Below, one piece after another: positions 8,580-18,284 of a DNA stretch of 53,006 nucleotides. Numbering within the stretch: position 1 is the stretch's first letter; each line of letters starts with the position of its first letter. The stretch spans positions 1-53,006 of the forward strand of contig CAJXMP010000002.1 in the NCBI GenBank assembly GCA_913056515.1, in the 5' to 3' direction. Below the pieces are notes generated by a model. It was given only the letters and a program-made list of their open reading frames with translations. It did no database searches and was not told the DNA's origin. The stretch is from an uncultured Lewinella sp. Lineage in GTDB: Bacteria; Bacteroidota; Bacteroidia; Chitinophagales; Saprospiraceae. Made by a program: the position numbers and the translations under genes.

Positions 8580-9836
8580 ATGGATCCGTTAATCACAAAC
8601 GATGCCGTTGTATTTGGATTATTACTGGTAATTCTAGCGCTGATTTTCTATACATCTAGCCTAGATTCCTTCAAGAAGTTTTACACCTTTTTTCCACCGC
8701 TTTTACTCTGCTATTTTATTCCTGGCTTGCTGAATTGGCCTTTAAATATCATATCAGGTGAGAGCTCCAACCTCTACTTCGTGGCATCCCGATATATGCT
8801 ACCCGCTTCCTTGATTTTACTCTGTCTCAGTATAGACTTCAAGGGGATCAGACAATTGGGTTCAAAGGCGCTTGTTATGTTCTTAACTGCTACATTTGGA
8901 ATCATTATTGGGGGTCCTGTAGCCTTGTTTGCTGCTTCAGCCATACTGCCTGAAAGTGTAATCAGTGTAAGCACTGACGAATTATGGCGAGGGCTTTCTA
9001 CTATTGCTGGATCTTGGATTGGAGGTGGAGCGAATCAGGCCGCGATGAAAGAAATATTTGAAGTGGATGATTTAGTTTATTCCTCTATGATTGTGGTTGA
9101 TGTAATCGTTGCCAATATATGGATGGCCTTTCTACTTATCGGTGCAGCTCAATCTGATAAAATCGATAAGATTTTAAAGGCTGATAACTCCTCTATTACT
9201 GCACTCAAAGAAAAGGTGAAGGCCTTCAGAGATAAGGTAACCAAAACAGCTACTACTACTGATTTATTCATACTTTTTGCCGTTGCCTTTGGTGGAGTAG
9301 CTTTAGCACATTTAGGTGCCGATCTAGTTACGCCTATGTTTAAAAATATTAATGAAGCGTCAAATAATTGGTTATCGGATAATGGACTCAATACACTGAT
9401 GAGTGGATTCTTTTGGCTTATCGTGATCGCTACTACATTTGGAGTTGGACTATCTTTTACTAAAGCCAGAAACCTAGAAGGTGTTGGGGCATCCAAATTT
9501 GGCTCCGTTTTCATCTATATATTGGTTGCTACCATTGGTATGAAGATGAATATTGGTGAAGTCTTCAAAAATCCAGGTCTATTCGCTATTGGTTTGATTT
9601 GGATGTTGGTACACGTTATTACACTTCTTGGTGTTGCGAAATTGATTAAAGCTCCATTCTTCTTTGTAGCTGTAGGCTCGCAAGCAAACGTTGGAGGTGC
9701 TGCATCTGCTCCAATTGTAGCATCTGCTTTTGATTCTTCATTGGCGCCAGTTGGTGCTTTAATGGCTGTATTGGGATATGCCCTAGGAACATATGGTGCT
9801 TGGGCATGTGCATTGCTCATGCAAGCAGCTAGTTAG
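8580..9836 (+). CDS. DUF819 family integral membrane protein
   Basis: The 418-residue product is almost wholly hydrophobic with about ten to twelve membrane segments. It carries family-typical pieces: LNWPLNIISG, a glycine-rich WIGGGANQAAMKEIFEVDD loop near residue 145 and GSQANVGGAASAPIVASAF near residue 360, which look like paired re-entrant signatures in a two-fold repeated transporter. The DUF819 (YjcL-like) family is probably a transporter, but I know of no firmly established substrate. It is a single-gene unit, and its last bases overlap the stop of the convergent glycosidase gene by 8 bases. Confidence 0.85.
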   Translation: MDPLITNDAVVFGLLLVILALIFYTSSLDSFKKFYTFFPPLLLCYFIPGLLNWPLNIISGESSNLYFVASRYMLPASLILLCLSIDFKGIRQLGSKALVMFLTATFGIIIGGPVALFAASAILPESVISVSTDELWRGLSTIAGSWIGGGANQAAMKEIFEVDDLVYSSMIVVDVIVANIWMAFLLIGAAQSDKIDKILKADNSSITALKEKVKAFRDKVTKTATTTDLFILFAVAFGGVALAHLGADLVTPMFKNINEASNNWLSDNGLNTLMSGFFWLIVIATTFGVGLSFTKARNLEGVGASKFGSVFIYILVATIGMKMNIGEVFKNPGLFAIGLIWMLVHVITLLGVAKLIKAPFFFVAVGSQANVGGAASAPIVASAFDSSLAPVGALMAVLGYALGTYGAWACALLMQAAS

Positions 9837-10845
9837 TTTGATACCACTTCTGTATAGTATAAAAAGCTTGTTTGGCCTGAGGCGTATAATCCGTCTCAGG
9901 CCTTCTTTCTTGAGTGCCTTCATCGATATACCACTTCCAAATAAAGCCTCCTGCCCACCATTCCACAGGACTAAATACAGTAAAAAGGGCTTCAAAAGCT
10001 CTAGCCTGAGCAGCCTCATCCGCTTGGATGCTGCGACGTTGAGGTTCCAAATTCCAATTTTCAAAGGCACAATTCGCAACAGATAAATAACCGAATTCAG
10101 TAAACATAACCGGCTTTTGATAATAGCTATGCAGCTGTTCTATTTGCTTTTGATATGGAACCCAAGCTTGGACTAAATCTTTCACATCAGCCTGAGGATT
10201 ATCTAATAATGGGAAATATGCATCTATACCGATGTAGTCTAAATCTCCCCAAAAAGACACTTGATCATAGGTATCCCAGTTCGCTGCATAGGTTAGTTCG
10301 CCAGAATAAAAACATCTAATTTCGTTAATCAAGTCCATCCAGAAGCCTGGGCGCTTGATAGCCGATTGGTCTAGTTCAGTCCCTATACAAAGCACAGGCA
10401 CCTGTTCTTTAGCAGCAATCCAGGCAAAGTCTAGTATAAAAGCCTTATAACTTGCTTCAAAATTGGACCAGCCAGTCTCCGTAAAATCCACAGCCCCAGG
10501 CCAAGAACCTGGAACATAAACCTGAGGTTTTAGCATAACCTGTAAACCTGCTTCTTGCGCATATTGAATAGACCTCCTTGACCCTTCCAATGTCTCTCCC
10601 CACCACTGCCAAGTATCTAGATTATATCGAACCTCATCAGACCCTGAACGGATAAATCCAAAAGGAATTATTGCAACAGCATCTGCCTGTATCTCTTTCA
10701 AAGCCACATAAGGCTGTGAACCAACATCTATTCTTGGAGCAACAATAGATAGTCCATTAAACATACTAGAGGATTGACCTGCCAATCCAATGGACCAACA
10801 AAAAGCTACTAAGTCAATTAACCTTCTAATCTTGTTCAATGGCAT
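9829..10845 (-). CDS. GH113-like TIM-barrel glycoside hydrolase
   Basis: The 338-residue protein fits the (beta/alpha)8 fold of GH113-type beta-mannanase-like enzymes. Likely acid/base and nucleophile are E157 in VLCIGTELDQ and E250 in PVMFTEFGY, at the ends of strands 4 and 7. Other barrel landmarks are MLKPQVYVP, DYIGIDAYFPL and WWAGGFIWKWY. An N-terminal hydrophobic stretch (IDLVAFCWSIGLAG) suggests export or membrane anchoring. The start ATG overlaps the end of the upstream 497-aa gene by 20 bases, so the two are probably translated together. The substrate is inferred only at the level of a beta-linked hexoside. Confidence 0.75.
   Translation of the reverse strand: MPLNKIRRLIDLVAFCWSIGLAGQSSSMFNGLSIVAPRIDVGSQPYVALKEIQADAVAIIPFGFIRSGSDEVRYNLDTWQWWGETLEGSRRSIQYAQEAGLQVMLKPQVYVPGSWPGAVDFTETGWSNFEASYKAFILDFAWIAAKEQVPVLCIGTELDQSAIKRPGFWMDLINEIRCFYSGELTYAANWDTYDQVSFWGDLDYIGIDAYFPLLDNPQADVKDLVQAWVPYQKQIEQLHSYYQKPVMFTEFGYLSVANCAFENWNLEPQRRSIQADEAAQARAFEALFTVFSPVEWWAGGFIWKWYIDEGTQERRPETDYTPQAKQAFYTIQKWYQTN
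9874..9910 (+). terminator. Terminator of the DUF819 gene, inside the opposing CDS
   Basis: GGCCTGAG (9874-9881) pairs perfectly with CTCAGGCC (9895-9902) and is followed by the T-rich TTCTTTCTT. It lies 38 bases past the DUF819 stop but within the coding sequence of the convergent glycosidase gene. Confidence 0.65.
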
Positions 10846-12864: not shown

Positions 12865-13368
12865 TTAATTCGTAACCTTTACACCTGAAGCGTAAAACTT
12901 CAGTTGATATTCTGGCTCTGTGATTTGCTCTACTTCTTCTGGAGAAAGACCTGCATCCTCAGCATAATGCCTTAACTCATCTACCGGCGTCATTTCCGAG
13001 AAAGCCTTTCCATTCATGGCAATTTTTGCACCGCTTAAGTCTTTTGGAACAAAAAATCCATAATCCCTAAATCGAACATTTATGACCTGGCTAGTATCCA
13101 GTTCAGACACTACAGTCATCCAACATCCTTTGACTTGACAAACCTCTTTTACCACACCATACACCACTGCATCTAAAGAATCAGATTCAGCAATTTGTGA
13201 TGCATCAATATTCAATATATCCTCTGCTTTTTCATCAGAAAAATCCTCTCCATACAATCCTGGATTATCAACTTCTGTTGATTCATTCTGCTCAGCAGCT
13301 CCTTGTTGTTCATTCGTACATGCAAAAATTGAAATAGCAAATACCCCTAGAAACCAAAGTCTTTTCAT
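12865..13368 (-). CDS. DUF4920 domain lipoprotein
   Basis: The tracked start is too long; the ATG at 13368 gives MKRLWFLGVFAISIFAC, a clean lipoprotein signal with the lipid cysteine at residue 17. After an acidic linker the DUF4920 domain follows, recognised by VVKEVCQVKGCWMTVV, VNVRFRDYGFFVPKDLSGAK and QLKFYASGV. This beta-rich domain is common in Bacteroidota periplasmic lipoproteins; the two cysteines in CQVKGC could bind metal or form a disulfide. The function is unknown. It is a single gene with its own terminator, divergent from the MORN-caspase gene. Confidence 0.85.
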   Translation of the reverse strand: MKRLWFLGVFAISIFACTNEQQGAAEQNESTEVDNPGLYGEDFSDEKAEDILNIDASQIAESDSLDAVVYGVVKEVCQVKGCWMTVVSELDTSQVINVRFRDYGFFVPKDLSGAKIAMNGKAFSEMTPVDELRHYAEDAGLSPEEVEQITEPEYQLKFYASGVKVTN

Positions 13369-13390
13369 TTTTTCCGTTTTTATTTCAAAA

Positions 13391-13398
13391 CAAAAATA
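13391..13398 (-). promoter_or_regulatory. Possible -7 element for the DUF4920 gene
   Basis: The minus strand reads TATTTTTG, an exact TAnnTTTG match, 22 bases before the chosen ATG. The region is very A/T-rich, so a chance match is possible. It also supports the shorter start, because the tracked start at 13413 lies upstream of it. Confidence 0.35.
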
Positions 13399-13574
13399 AT
13401 AATATTCTGTCAACCTACCACTATCAAAATTTCATCGAAAGATTTCCACCTTTAATCCTAAAAAAATTCTTAAAAGCATTAAATTATAAAATATTTATAT
13501 GTATAAAATGTTTATTTGAAGAATAAAATTTCATACTAGACCTAACATCTAGCTAATTAAAAACCGATTGAAGC

Positions 13575-15140
13575 ATGAGACCCTTACTTTTGATTTTTTC
13601 ATTTGGATTTTTACCCTACTTAGTAGAAGCTCAATGTATAGTAGGTGATTGTTTGAATAACTACAGTAGTTACAAATTCTCCGATGGTGGTGTTTACAAA
13701 GGAGATTTCCATGAAGGCAAGCCGCATGGACAAGGAACCATTACCTACAGAGATAACAGTCAGTACACCGGAGCATGGGCCAACGGCACTTATAATGGCA
13801 ACGGTACCTTCACTAATGCTGATGGCAAATATGAAGGTCACTTTAATCAGGGTAAATTTCACGGCTTTGGCGTTTTCCACTTCTCGAATGGTGACATCTA
13901 TGAAGGTCAATGGAACAATCATAAACAACATGGTTTTGGGATTATCCTAAAATTAGATGGAGCAAAGTTTGAAGGATATTTTCATCATGGACAAATGCAT
14001 GGACCTGGTACCATTACGCATACGGATGGTCGAAGCTTTGAAAGTGTGTGGCAATATGGTAAACTACCATCCAATTCATCAAGAATGGTAAGACATAATA
14101 ATGACTTCAGCTTTAACTGTAATGAGCAGTATTGTCATGAAAATACAGGTACCTATCAATATGAAAACGGAAATATTTATAAGGGGGAATTCTTTGATGG
14201 AAGACCCAAAGGATCTGGTCAGTTAATTTATCCCAATGGGGATATTTATAATGGAGAGTTTTCCAACGACAAGCCCAATGGCAAAGGGAAAAAAGTATTT
14301 GTTGATGGAGGAGAGATTCATGGGGAGTTCCACAACGGCAACATAGTTAGAACATTTACAGACTTTGATGTATATCCTCAAGATTATTATGAAGATACGC
14401 AAGCGGCTGATGTAGATATATATGCAGTGTTGGTTGGTGTAAGTGCCTACCCTGGTGATATAGATGACATCTTATATGCGGATGAAGACGCCATGCGGAT
14501 GTATTTTCATTTGAGATCCAAAGAAGGAGGTGCCCTTCAAAAATCACAGATTCGATTGCTAACCAACCAGGAAGCCACCAAAGATAATATCTTGAAAGCC
14601 ACTGCTGAAGTATTTAGTCAAGCAGATGAAAATGATATGGTTATATTTTATTATTCCGGTCATGGTCAATACAATGGCTTTATACCTATTGATTACCATT
14701 ATGGAAAATTAGTCAACTACCAAGCTTTAAGCGAAATCTTTAAGGCATCAAAAGCTAAACATAAATTGATTATCGCAGATGCATGTAGATCAGGAGCAAT
14801 GCCTGATTTTACAGAAAAGGGAATAGGTGAAAGACAGGAGGATATTAACCCCAATTTTTATAAACACTTATATCATTCAGAACCAGGATATGCCTTCTTA
14901 TTATCTTCAACATCAAGGGAATTGTCCTATGAACATGACCCTTTAAGAGCTGGTGTATTTAGTTACTATCTAATCAAAGGAATTAAAGGTCAAGCCAATA
15001 AGAATAATGATGAATTAATTTCTATTGCTGAATTATACAAATTCATCTCTAGCAACGTGAAGCGCTACACAGATGGGAAACAAACGCCTATCATTTATGG
15101 TGATTTTGATGGTAGAACACCTATAAGTTCTATGAAATAA
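13575..15140 (+). CDS. Exported MORN-repeat protein with C-terminal caspase (C14) domain, 521 aa
   Basis: A signal peptide (MRPLLLIFSFGFLPYLVEA) is followed by about ten MORN repeats (residues 35-255), seen as YxGxxxxGxxHGxG units such as YKGDFHEGKPHGQG and YNGEFSNDKPNGKG. The MORN array is headed by CIVGDC at 21-26, and a second cysteine pair CNEQYC is at 182-187. A caspase-like domain follows (about 282-515): a beta-strand start IYAVLVGVSAYPG, catalytic His363 in YYSGHGQ and Cys404 in IIADACRSG. It should be an active cysteine peptidase of the caspase/metacaspase/para-caspase clan. No type IX C-terminal signal is visible, so a periplasmic or outer-membrane place is inferred. It is a tandem paralogue of the next gene and has its own terminator. 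Confidence 0.9.
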   Translation: MRPLLLIFSFGFLPYLVEAQCIVGDCLNNYSSYKFSDGGVYKGDFHEGKPHGQGTITYRDNSQYTGAWANGTYNGNGTFTNADGKYEGHFNQGKFHGFGVFHFSNGDIYEGQWNNHKQHGFGIILKLDGAKFEGYFHHGQMHGPGTITHTDGRSFESVWQYGKLPSNSSRMVRHNNDFSFNCNEQYCHENTGTYQYENGNIYKGEFFDGRPKGSGQLIYPNGDIYNGEFSNDKPNGKGKKVFVDGGEIHGEFHNGNIVRTFTDFDVYPQDYYEDTQAADVDIYAVLVGVSAYPGDIDDILYADEDAMRMYFHLRSKEGGALQKSQIRLLTNQEATKDNILKATAEVFSQADENDMVIFYYSGHGQYNGFIPIDYHYGKLVNYQALSEIFKASKAKHKLIIADACRSGAMPDFTEKGIGERQEDINPNFYKHLYHSEPGYAFLLSSTSRELSYEHDPLRAGVFSYYLIKGIKGQANKNNDELISIAELYKFISSNVKRYTDGKQTPIIYGDFDGRTPISSMK

Positions 15141-15147
15141 TTTATCT

Positions 15148-15172
15148 AAGGCAGTTTATACTGCCTTTTTTT
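15148..15172 (+). terminator. Intrinsic terminator between the two MORN-caspase genes
   Basis: AAGGCAGT (15148-15155), loop TTAT, ACTGCCTT (15160-15167), then T up to 15172. It is a strong, perfect hairpin, so the paralogues are probably separate transcripts. Confidence 0.9.
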
Positions 15173-15252
15173 GATACCCTTCATAATGAAAAAAGGTATT
15201 TTGTCGTTAATTGAATCATACAATACCATCAAACTAATCATAACATTCTATC

Positions 15253-17235
15253 ATGTATTCTAAATCTCGCCGCATCAAATACTTCCTTTCCCTTTCAGCT
15301 CTACTGTTTTGTCTACTCCAAGCTCATGCACAAGAATGCCAAACAGGAAATTGCACCAATGGAACGGGTATAATGACTTTTGCATCAGGTGGAAAATATT
15401 TAGGTCACTTTAAAGATGGCAAAGCAAATGGAATTGGAAAATTCATTTATTCCGATGGTTCTATATACCAGGGTAATTGGCTAAACAATTATCCCGAGGG
15501 GCAGGGAATCAAAATATATCCTGATGGATCGAGAACAGAAGGCTGGTGGAGTAAAGGGAAACCTACTGATCCACCTCAGTCAGAAGAGCCAGCTGAAGCA
15601 GTTGCAGTTGCCTCCAAAAAAGAAGAAGTCCAAGCTGAAGTAATGGATGCCATTATAAAAGAAGAGAAAAAATTAAGCTTACAAGAAAGACTTAGTAATC
15701 CGGACAATAAACCTCAACAAACCGGATGTATTAGCGGTGATTGCACCAATGGCAAAGGTATCTACATATACCCTTCTGGTGCTGCTTATATTGGAGAATT
15801 CAAGGATGGACTTATTCATGGTATAGGTGTTTGTTATTATCCCAATGGGAGCAAGTATCAAGGAAATTGGGTGAAGCGATATCCAGAAGGAAGGGGAACC
15901 AAAATAAGTGCTGATGGTAGAAAATGGACTGGACAATGGAAAAAGGGTCAACCTCTAGATAATGATGGACAAGTGATTGCAGAACTATTTCCAAATGAAT
16001 CTAATAATGAGTTAGAAGCCAATGTTCAAACTGGATGTGTTTCTGGTGATTGTACTTCAGGTATTGGTATTTTCGCTTATGCCAATGGTGCACGGTATGA
16101 GGGCAGTTTCAAAAATGGAAAACCCAACGGTAGAGGTGCATTCTACTACCCAGATGAAAGCACCTATGTTGGAGATGTACAAGATGGTTTGTACCATGGG
16201 GATGGTGAATACACTAGACCAGATGGCCATACGCTTTCTGGTATGTGGGAAGAAGGAACATTAGTGGAAGACCAAAATATGGTTGCTAATGTGGGCTGCA
16301 TCGAAGGAGATTGTTCAAATGGTTATGGCACCTTAGTCAAGCCCAATGGAGACCAATATGTCGGAAACTTTAAAAACGGTGTCTACCATGGTCATGGCAC
16401 ATTAATAGGTGCTGACGGATCAGAAATCAAAGGCAATTGGTATAAGGGCATATTTGAAGCGAGTAAAACCTCTGAAATGCCTACTCGCAAACCCAAACGA
16501 GGTTTCAAAAGACCAAAAGTGTATGCTGTAGTAGTAGGCGTATCATCCTATGATCACATGCCTACCCTTAAGTATACGGATGATGACGCATATAGAGTTT
16601 ACGCTTTTTTAAGATCACCCAAAGGGGGAGCACTGGAGGGAGATCAAATCAGTGTCTTAATTGATGAAGCAGCTACAAAAGTGAAGATTATAGAAGCCAT
16701 GCGCAGTACTTTTGCCAAAGCTGGTCCAGAAGATCTGATCATGCTCTACTTCTCTGGACATGGCTTAAATGGTGCTTTTTTACCTATTGATTTTGATGGA
16801 TACAACAACCGTCTTGACCACGAAACCATTAAATCAATTTTAGAGGAAAGCGACGCTAAATACAAAATCTGCATTGCAGATGCCTGTCACTCTGGTTCTT
16901 TACTAGCTATGAAAAGTGGTGAAGACAAGACCATCATTGAATCTTATTATGATCAATTGGCTCAAGCTAAAGCAGGTACAGCTCTTATTATGTCTTCTAA
17001 GTCTCAAGAAACCTCTTTAGAGTCTCAGGGTCTAAGACAAGGAGTATTTAGTCACTACCTCATCAAAGGATTAGAAGGAGAAGCAGATATACAGCCAAGG
17101 GATAGAATAGTTACCATAGCAGAGCTTTTTGAATTCATCAATACAAATGTAAAAGCATATACTGGCAAAAGACAAACTCCGGTAATTCAAGGGGATTTCG
17201 ATCCAAATATGCCGGTCAGTGTACTTGGATTGTAA
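15253..17235 (+). CDS. Exported four-module MORN protein with C-terminal caspase (C14) domain, 660 aa
   Basis: A signal peptide ends at about residue 27 (LLQAHA). Four modules follow, each opening with a cysteine pair and a glycine motif: CQTGNCTNG (29), CISGDCTNG (159), CVSGDCTSG (262) and CIEGDCSNG (349). Each is followed by three or so MORN units such as YIGEFKDGLIHGIG. Linkers between modules are charged; the first (about 104-155) is rich in E and K. The caspase domain spans about 422-655 with His503 in YFSGHGL and Cys545 in IADACHSG, the classic metacaspase-type signature. The basic stretch TRKPKRGFKRPK just before the domain could be a processing site. It is paralogous to the preceding gene but with a different module layout. 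Confidence 0.9.
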   Translation: MYSKSRRIKYFLSLSALLFCLLQAHAQECQTGNCTNGTGIMTFASGGKYLGHFKDGKANGIGKFIYSDGSIYQGNWLNNYPEGQGIKIYPDGSRTEGWWSKGKPTDPPQSEEPAEAVAVASKKEEVQAEVMDAIIKEEKKLSLQERLSNPDNKPQQTGCISGDCTNGKGIYIYPSGAAYIGEFKDGLIHGIGVCYYPNGSKYQGNWVKRYPEGRGTKISADGRKWTGQWKKGQPLDNDGQVIAELFPNESNNELEANVQTGCVSGDCTSGIGIFAYANGARYEGSFKNGKPNGRGAFYYPDESTYVGDVQDGLYHGDGEYTRPDGHTLSGMWEEGTLVEDQNMVANVGCIEGDCSNGYGTLVKPNGDQYVGNFKNGVYHGHGTLIGADGSEIKGNWYKGIFEASKTSEMPTRKPKRGFKRPKVYAVVVGVSSYDHMPTLKYTDDDAYRVYAFLRSPKGGALEGDQISVLIDEAATKVKIIEAMRSTFAKAGPEDLIMLYFSGHGLNGAFLPIDFDGYNNRLDHETIKSILEESDAKYKICIADACHSGSLLAMKSGEDKTIIESYYDQLAQAKAGTALIMSSKSQETSLESQGLRQGVFSHYLIKGLEGEADIQPRDRIVTIAELFEFINTNVKAYTGKRQTPVIQGDFDPNMPVSVLGL

Positions 17236-17242
17236 TAAAGCA

Positions 17243-17272
17243 GGTAATATCTAGTTGGTATTACCTTTTTTT
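17243..17272 (+). terminator. Intrinsic terminator after the second MORN-caspase gene
   Basis: GGTAATA (17243-17249) pairs with TATTACC (17259-17265), followed by seven T residues. It starts 8 bases past the stop. Confidence 0.85.
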
Positions 17273-17328: not shown

Positions 17329-17919
17329 ATGCGTTACCTAATACTAAGCACACTGCTAATACTAAGTGCCACAACTTGGGCCCAGAAATATGAAAAAGCG
17401 ACCTTTGGCGGCGGATGCTTTTGGTGTGTAGAAGCAGTTTTTGAAGAATTAGAAGGAGTTGTATCTGTAGTATCAGGCTATTCAGGAGATACTAAATACT
17501 ATTCCTACGAAGAAGTTTGTACGGGTAGAACCAAACATGCAGAAGTGGTTCAAATAACCTACGATCCTTCGAAGATAGACTTTAAATTTTTATGTGAAGT
17601 TTTTTTTACAACACATGATCCTACAACCTTGAATCGACAAGGGAATGATAGAGGCCCTCAATACCGCTCCGTCATTTTTTATCACAATAACAAGCAAAAG
17701 GAAATTGCTATGAATGTTAAAAGAATCTTCGCGACTACGCTTTGGGAAGACCCTGTGGTGACTGAAATTTCGCCCTTCATAAAATTTTATGATGCAGAAC
17801 AATACCACCAAGATTTCTATGAAAATAATACCTCTTACGGGTATTGTAGAGTAATCATTAATCCCAAAATTGAAAAGTTCAGGAAGCAATATGCTGCTTA
17901 TCTTAAAAAATCCAACTAA
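17329..17919 (+). CDS. msrA: Exported peptide-methionine (S)-S-oxide reductase
   Basis: MsrA repairs the S form of methionine sulfoxide. The 196-residue protein has a signal peptide ([18 protein letters not shown]), then [19 protein letters not shown] with the catalytic cysteine in the GGCFWC motif. Other family marks are [39 protein letters not shown] and AEQYHQDFY. The signal peptide places it in the periplasm, where it would guard exported proteins. Its TAA shares one base with the ATG of msrB (TAATG), so the two are translationally coupled. Confidence 0.94.
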
Positions 17920-18284
17920 TGAGTAAGTCTTATAATCCACTGAGTCCGGAGGAAGCAAGAGTAATTCTGCATAAAGGAACTGAAAGGCCCTTTACTGGGG
18001 AGTATAATGATCATAAGGTAGCAGGCACTTATTCTTGCCGTCAATGCGATACACCACTGTACCAATCCGAGGACAAATTCAGTTCTGGTTGTGGTTGGCC
18101 GAGTTTTGATGATGAAATAGCAGGTGCAGTAGAACGCGTCCCTGATGCAGATGGTCGACGAACTGAAATTATTTGCTCGAATTGTAAAGGGCACCTTGGG
18201 CATGTCTTTTTAGGAGAACGATTTACCGCAAAAAACACCAGGCACTGCGTTAATTCCATTTCACTCAAGTTCACACCTAAATAA
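17919..18284 (+). CDS. msrB: Peptide-methionine (R)-S-oxide reductase
   Basis: MsrB repairs the R form of methionine sulfoxide. The 121-residue product carries two zinc-binding CxxC pairs (CRQCDTPLY and [10 protein letters not shown]), the motif [10 protein letters not shown] and the catalytic cysteine in [11 protein letters not shown]. Unlike MsrA it has no signal peptide ([16 protein letters not shown]), so it appears cytoplasmic even though the genes overlap by one base. Confidence 0.95.

Follow-up and report, generated by a model that had tools for sequence, protein, structure and literature searches.

Caspase homologues of bacteria have mostly been discussed as enzymes of cell death or defence. 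The family considered here, Saprospiraceae, presumably includes the genus Haliscomenobacter. Multi-metacaspase operons were noted in 2012 and Haliscomenobacter was described as metacaspase-rich, with 28 genes (PMC3501461), and MORN-metacaspases were already catalogued in 2016 (PMC4933709). Based on a window of 53,006 nucleotides (the whole stretch of DNA analysed) from an uncultured Lewinella sp. and on homologous loci from related genomes, two neighbouring genes encoding predicted exported MORN-caspases, A and B, were characterized. The reading preferred here, to which about even confidence is attached, is that they are exported orthocaspases that arose by one tandem duplication and were kept as a specialised envelope pair.

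Gene A (13575..15140, + strand), identified from its open reading frame and Pfam matches, encodes a predicted exported MORN-caspase of 521 amino acids. A putative signal peptide (13575..13631, +; MRPLLLIFSFGFLPYLVEA, cleaved before Q), assigned from the sequence and a hydrophobic-segment score, is followed by the CX4C motif CIVGDC (C21-C26; 13635..13652, +), a continuous MORN array with approximate limits of 13653..14384 (+), and a Peptidase_C14 domain (14421..15098, +), whose SGHG and DACRSG motifs hold the dyad His363 (codon 14661-14663) and Cys404 (codon 14784-14786). Gene B (15253..17235, +; open reading frame and Pfam) encodes a predicted exported MORN-caspase of 660 amino acids, with a putative signal peptide of 26 residues (15253..15330, +; from the sequence and an N-terminal helix in a structure model), four MORN modules, and a Peptidase_C14 domain (16522..17190, +) carrying His503 (codon 16759-16761) and Cys545 (codon 16885-16887) in SGHG and DACHSG. 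Both proteins lie above the Pfam cut-offs for MORN (PF02493; 117.8 bits for A and 130.6 for B, cut-off 22.5) and Peptidase_C14 (PF00656; 70.6 and 71.9 bits, cut-off 21.4), which, with the reading frames and dyads, confirms the combination of a signal-peptide-like N-terminus, MORN array and intact caspase domain that a sequence-only reading had described for both genes. The same reading had assigned a separate terminator to each gene, and a terminator-like hairpin does follow A (15148..15167, +) and B (17242..17266, +); both are likely rather than proven, since the scan returned 6 sites in the region versus 3.3 (sd 1.5) in shuffles. The hairpin between the genes and the gap of 112 bp between stop and start argue against tight co-transcription of A and B. 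Upstream of A, a divergent intergenic region of 206 bp (13369..13574) is the presumed site of promoters for both A and a DUF4920 gene; no clear promoter motif was found in it, and a Bacteroidetes-type promoter was dropped, as the four matches in the window were at chance level and none lay inside this region. In the source genome, a 3.19-Mb draft with 87% completeness, no C14 gene besides A and B was found. Downstream of B lie genes for an exported MsrA and, directly after it, MsrB (17329-18284, +); these adjoin the pair in the window's genus only (3 loci, among them L116 and L181) and were rejected as a partner for this reason.

Homologues were collected from 100 loci in 80 further genomes, giving 136 scored copies with the window's two included. 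The catalytic Cys and His are intact in all 136 copies (134 with SGHG and 2 with AGHG), and the DACRSG of the window's A is unique among them. An initial regular expression found no DAC-SG in several upstream genes; the idea of a degenerate upstream paralogue (a pseudo-protease) was rejected because variants such as DACHAG keep the Cys in the alignment. The Asp columns aligned with the metacaspase LRGCxND and DSC positions, which are assigned to the metacaspase pocket, are invariant. A and B are read as orthocaspases of the C14B type, and from these two Asp positions they are predicted to cut after Arg or Lys.

The export call was made from hydropathy and the cleavage-site pattern in place of a dedicated predictor. 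The N-termini of A and B contain a hydrophobic, signal-peptide-like stretch with a cleavage site of the Ala-Gln type right before the first Cys, and the mature proteins would start with Gln-Cys or Gln-Glu-Cys just after it. A hydrophobic N-terminal segment (11 residues with a mean hydropathy of 1.84 or more, upstream of the first motif) is present in all 133 caspase copies not truncated by a contig end, the 3 of 136 copies that do not have it beginning at contig ends; it is also present in 51/51 DUF4920 proteins, as against 0/27 for HD, 2/18 for rpsF, 0/17 for rplI and 1/9 for serC. Both A and B are predicted to be exported, as had been proposed from the window, presumably by Sec and with a cleavable signal peptide. 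Neither homologues devoid of a signal-peptide-like segment nor homologues with a replaced catalytic Cys, either of which would speak against an envelope system, were encountered among the complete copies. No NCBIfam match to a T9SS C-terminal sorting domain was found in A or B at E values up to 0.1, both proteins end shortly after the caspase domain, and T9SS export was rejected. Since such a sorting domain was not found, A and B would be expected to stay in the periplasm after Sec export and signal cleavage.

The difference in repeat layout between A and B, also claimed in the sequence-only reading, proved real. In B, four MORN modules are each led by a CX2GxC (C-x2-G-[DN]-C) motif: CQTGNC (15337..15567), CISGDC (15727..15957), CVSGDC (16036..16266) and CIEGDC (16297..16458), all on the + strand and delimited from the model and sequence. 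A contains its one regular CX4C and a degenerate CX4C (CNEQYC) within the continuous array. Across the family, A-type copies carry a single regular CX4C pair ahead of an uninterrupted MORN array, and B-type copies carry three or four CX4C-MORN modules; all 47 copies with at least three CX4C modules score as B-type, and none of the 73 A-scoring copies exceeds two. An AF2 model of B, built with 23 sequences (pLDDT 75.6), starts with a helix, continues with four MORN blocks folded as beta-solenoids and ends in a caspase-like domain; the relative placement of these parts is not fixed by the model because of its pTM of 0.40. Foldseek matched the solenoid to MORN1 crystal structures (3.7e-20), and for the C-terminal part it returned legumain and metacaspase (1.9e-07). 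Lipid binding, which had been mentioned earlier as a property of MORN repeats, is not supported, as solved structures of eukaryotic MORN1 proteins favour protein-protein interaction and dimerisation (PMC7725318); for the arrays of A and B, too, protein binding or dimerisation is the best reading. Given the predicted export, the cysteine pairs are compatible with disulfides, which may rigidify each MORN solenoid block. By binding a protein partner or dimerising, the arrays could place and activate the caspase domain, and the continuous A array and modular B array might bind different partners or each other. A conserved basic linker for autocleavage, ahead of the caspase domain of B, was dropped as a candidate, the RKPKRGFKRPK of the window being absent from most homologues.

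By using a caspase-domain profile, the subfamily was detected in 98/130 Saprospiraceae genomes and in 3/3 genomes of the window's genus; in a class-wide sample it occurred in 8/295 genomes, three of these 8 being Saprospiraceae. Caspases of any kind were present in 176/199 family genomes, which often have many other C14 genes, and the relatives of B that carry a name in the genome collection came almost entirely from Saprospiraceae or other Bacteroidetes drafts; genomes of Portibacter, a cultured relative, also have a member. As the locus set consists of drafts partly picked for carrying pairs, the following fractions are not unbiased frequencies: two copies in one locus on the same strand in 35/81 genomes (34 of these within about 1.3 kb), A-type and B-type on different contigs in 20/81, A only in 23/81 and B only in 3/81, where drafts may miss genes. 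The expected side-by-side recurrence is seen across the family but is partial, 26 genomes having one of the two types and 20 having them on different contigs; given the genomes with A only or B only, A and B need not act together. By HMM score, 30 of the 35 tandem genomes are A+B and 5 are B+B, the latter being the three of the window's genus, with a fast-evolving A, and the genomes of loci L177 and L178. At L177 and L178, the tandem copies are short, combine about one MORN repeat with a C14 domain and group apart from A and B; they constitute a second kind of MORN-caspase pair.

In a maximum-likelihood tree of 64 domains from 32 two-copy loci (L176, L177 and L178 left out), the upstream and downstream genes were split by one branch (96/84), which 98% of the 200 bootstrap trees contained. 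A faster tree with the full set of 136 agreed for most copies; in it, the upstream genes from L179 and from the window's genus fell outside the A group, on long branches. Since the split falls on one branch and the layout follows it, the best reading of the sequences is that a single ancient tandem duplication, early in the history of a Saprospiraceae lineage, gave rise to A and B, with the order kept; the split and the distinct layouts also bear out the earlier suggestion that the paralogues diverged after duplication. A is fast-evolving in the window's genus, with 50% identity to the same relative versus 70% for B, and pN/pS for the genus pair is 0.42 for A and 0.25 for B (dN/dS was dropped because synonymous sites are saturated, leaving only pN/pS usable). 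The three upstream genes of this genus are slightly nearer B by HMM score, which is likely a long-branch effect.

Divergent from A lies the gene for a DUF4920 protein (PF16267) of 167 amino acids (12865..13368, - strand; 109 bits, cut-off 25), whose translation contains a lipoprotein-like signal (IFAC) and a CQVKGCWM motif; it is single copy in the window's genome. With locus types assigned by the number of CX4C modules, DUF4920 divergently adjoins the caspase gene in 27/31 A+B, 22/49 A-only and 1/14 B-only loci, and it is the first upstream gene in 28/34 two-copy loci, as compared with 8/33 for the commonest first downstream family. Of 130 family genomes, 109 have it, only one of them in more than one copy, and the 51 aligned copies retain the CxxKGCW motif. 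Among the neighbours, DUF4920, which the sequence-only reading had not remarked on, is the strongest candidate for regulating the caspases or being their client. It was also found in 95/149 class genomes, and ten class loci had the same motif but lacked C14 genes in the roughly 3.2 kb examined, so its basic role does not depend on the caspases. Its structure model is weakly OB-like, with Foldseek matches mostly to SSB and tRNA-synthetase OB domains and none with E <0.001, and assigning a function from this generic fold was dropped. No paper on DUF4920 was found in the literature searched, outside which most subscription journals fall. Beyond DUF4920, HD-domain-like, TPR-adenylate-cyclase-like and other proteins (named by eye) recur upstream; such generally conserved gene order weakens a functional reading of DUF4920, whose link with the caspases may be inherited gene order.

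Several other neighbours were observed. A TPR plus adenylate/guanylate-cyclase-like gene lies near the caspases at L108 (10381-12525) and 12 other loci, mostly beyond DUF4920 upstream. A glycosidase-like gene (TIM-barrel-like, by eye; 9829-10845, -) has homologues upstream of A in 10 other loci, possibly through inherited gene order. An rpsF-like gene, with rpsR- and rplI-like genes after it, was found near the caspases in about 18 loci (L109, L113, L119, L120, L125, L179 and others), in most cases immediately after B or after a single copy, and possibly marks the ancestral location of the caspase genes.

With regard to function, the sequences make it plausible that a specialised pair carries out proteolysis at the envelope. 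The two-component response and the different signals that the sequence-only reading had proposed for A and B find no support here. A broader version, in which DUF4920, A and B would together form an envelope proteolysis module of three genes that much of Saprospiraceae has conserved, with disulfide-braced proteases acting jointly through different docking arrays and DUF4920 as regulator or client, is considered improbable; if true, it would amount to a periplasmic caspase circuit. It is quite doubtful that DUF4920 serves caspase A as a cognate regulator or inhibitor, by analogy with the potempins, the protease-inhibitor lipoprotein pairs of Tannerella: its neighbourhood counts, export-like N-terminus and OB-like model with a weak potempin A match (E 0.013, TM 0.31/0.48) are consistent with this, but the mostly SSB and tRNA-synthetase matches and the class genomes and loci described above argue against it.

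Somewhat unlikely, in our assessment, is that A and B work independently of each other as exported proteases of general purpose, for nutrient or housekeeping tasks, inherited in adjacency and order with no shared pathway. The 46/81 genomes in which they are apart or alone, the separate terminators and the frequent abundance of other C14 genes would fit this, whereas the 34 loci that keep the genes close together next to a variable first downstream gene, and the distinct and consistent layouts of A and B, argue against it. There is little to recommend an envelope-facing cell-death or anti-phage module, in which the caspase domains would kill the cell once the MORN repeats had sensed phage or damage. 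Caspase peptidases are effectors in bacterial conflict systems (PMC10907252), and both proteins match the PADLOC 'caspase' model (1.7e-15 and 1.4e-15). However, this match is limited to the catalytic part, scores against NF047832 (EACC1-associated caspase) are 80.1 and 92.8 bits with a cut-off of 140, and no defence gene was recognised among the recurrent neighbour families listed, mostly judged without a profile scan. The near-family-wide presence and recurrent synteny are also unlike mobile defence islands.

Among the closest known systems are the prokaryotic orthocaspases/metacaspases of MEROPS C14B (PMC3501461, PMC6426788), which share with A and B a C14 p20-type domain, a His-Cys dyad and acidic S1-type positions; A and B differ in being predicted to be exported, fused to MORN repeats and maintained as a tandem pair. 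EACC1-associated caspases are the best NCBIfam match to the catalytic domain, but A and B fall below their cut-off and no conflict-system partner was recognised nearby. Eukaryotic MORN1 (PDB 6t4d, 6t6q and 6t4r; PMC7725318) is the best sequence and fold match to the MORN beta-solenoid, although it is cytoskeleton-associated and has neither a protease domain nor the CX4C modules of B. The MORN-metacaspases of the 2016 catalogue share the architecture with MORN N-terminal to C14 and come from aquatic bacteria; the passage on them covers a handful of sequences with 1-4 MORN repeats and does not mention a signal peptide, pairing, A/B types or a neighbour (PMC4933709). In the literature searched, which leaves out most subscription journals, no precedent was found for the pairing of exported A and B, for its single origin, for the layout rule or for the DUF4920 linkage. 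DUF4920 gains a genomic context from the caspase pair, and vertically kept, predicted exported, paired caspases with an intact dyad point to routine envelope proteolysis as a further role.
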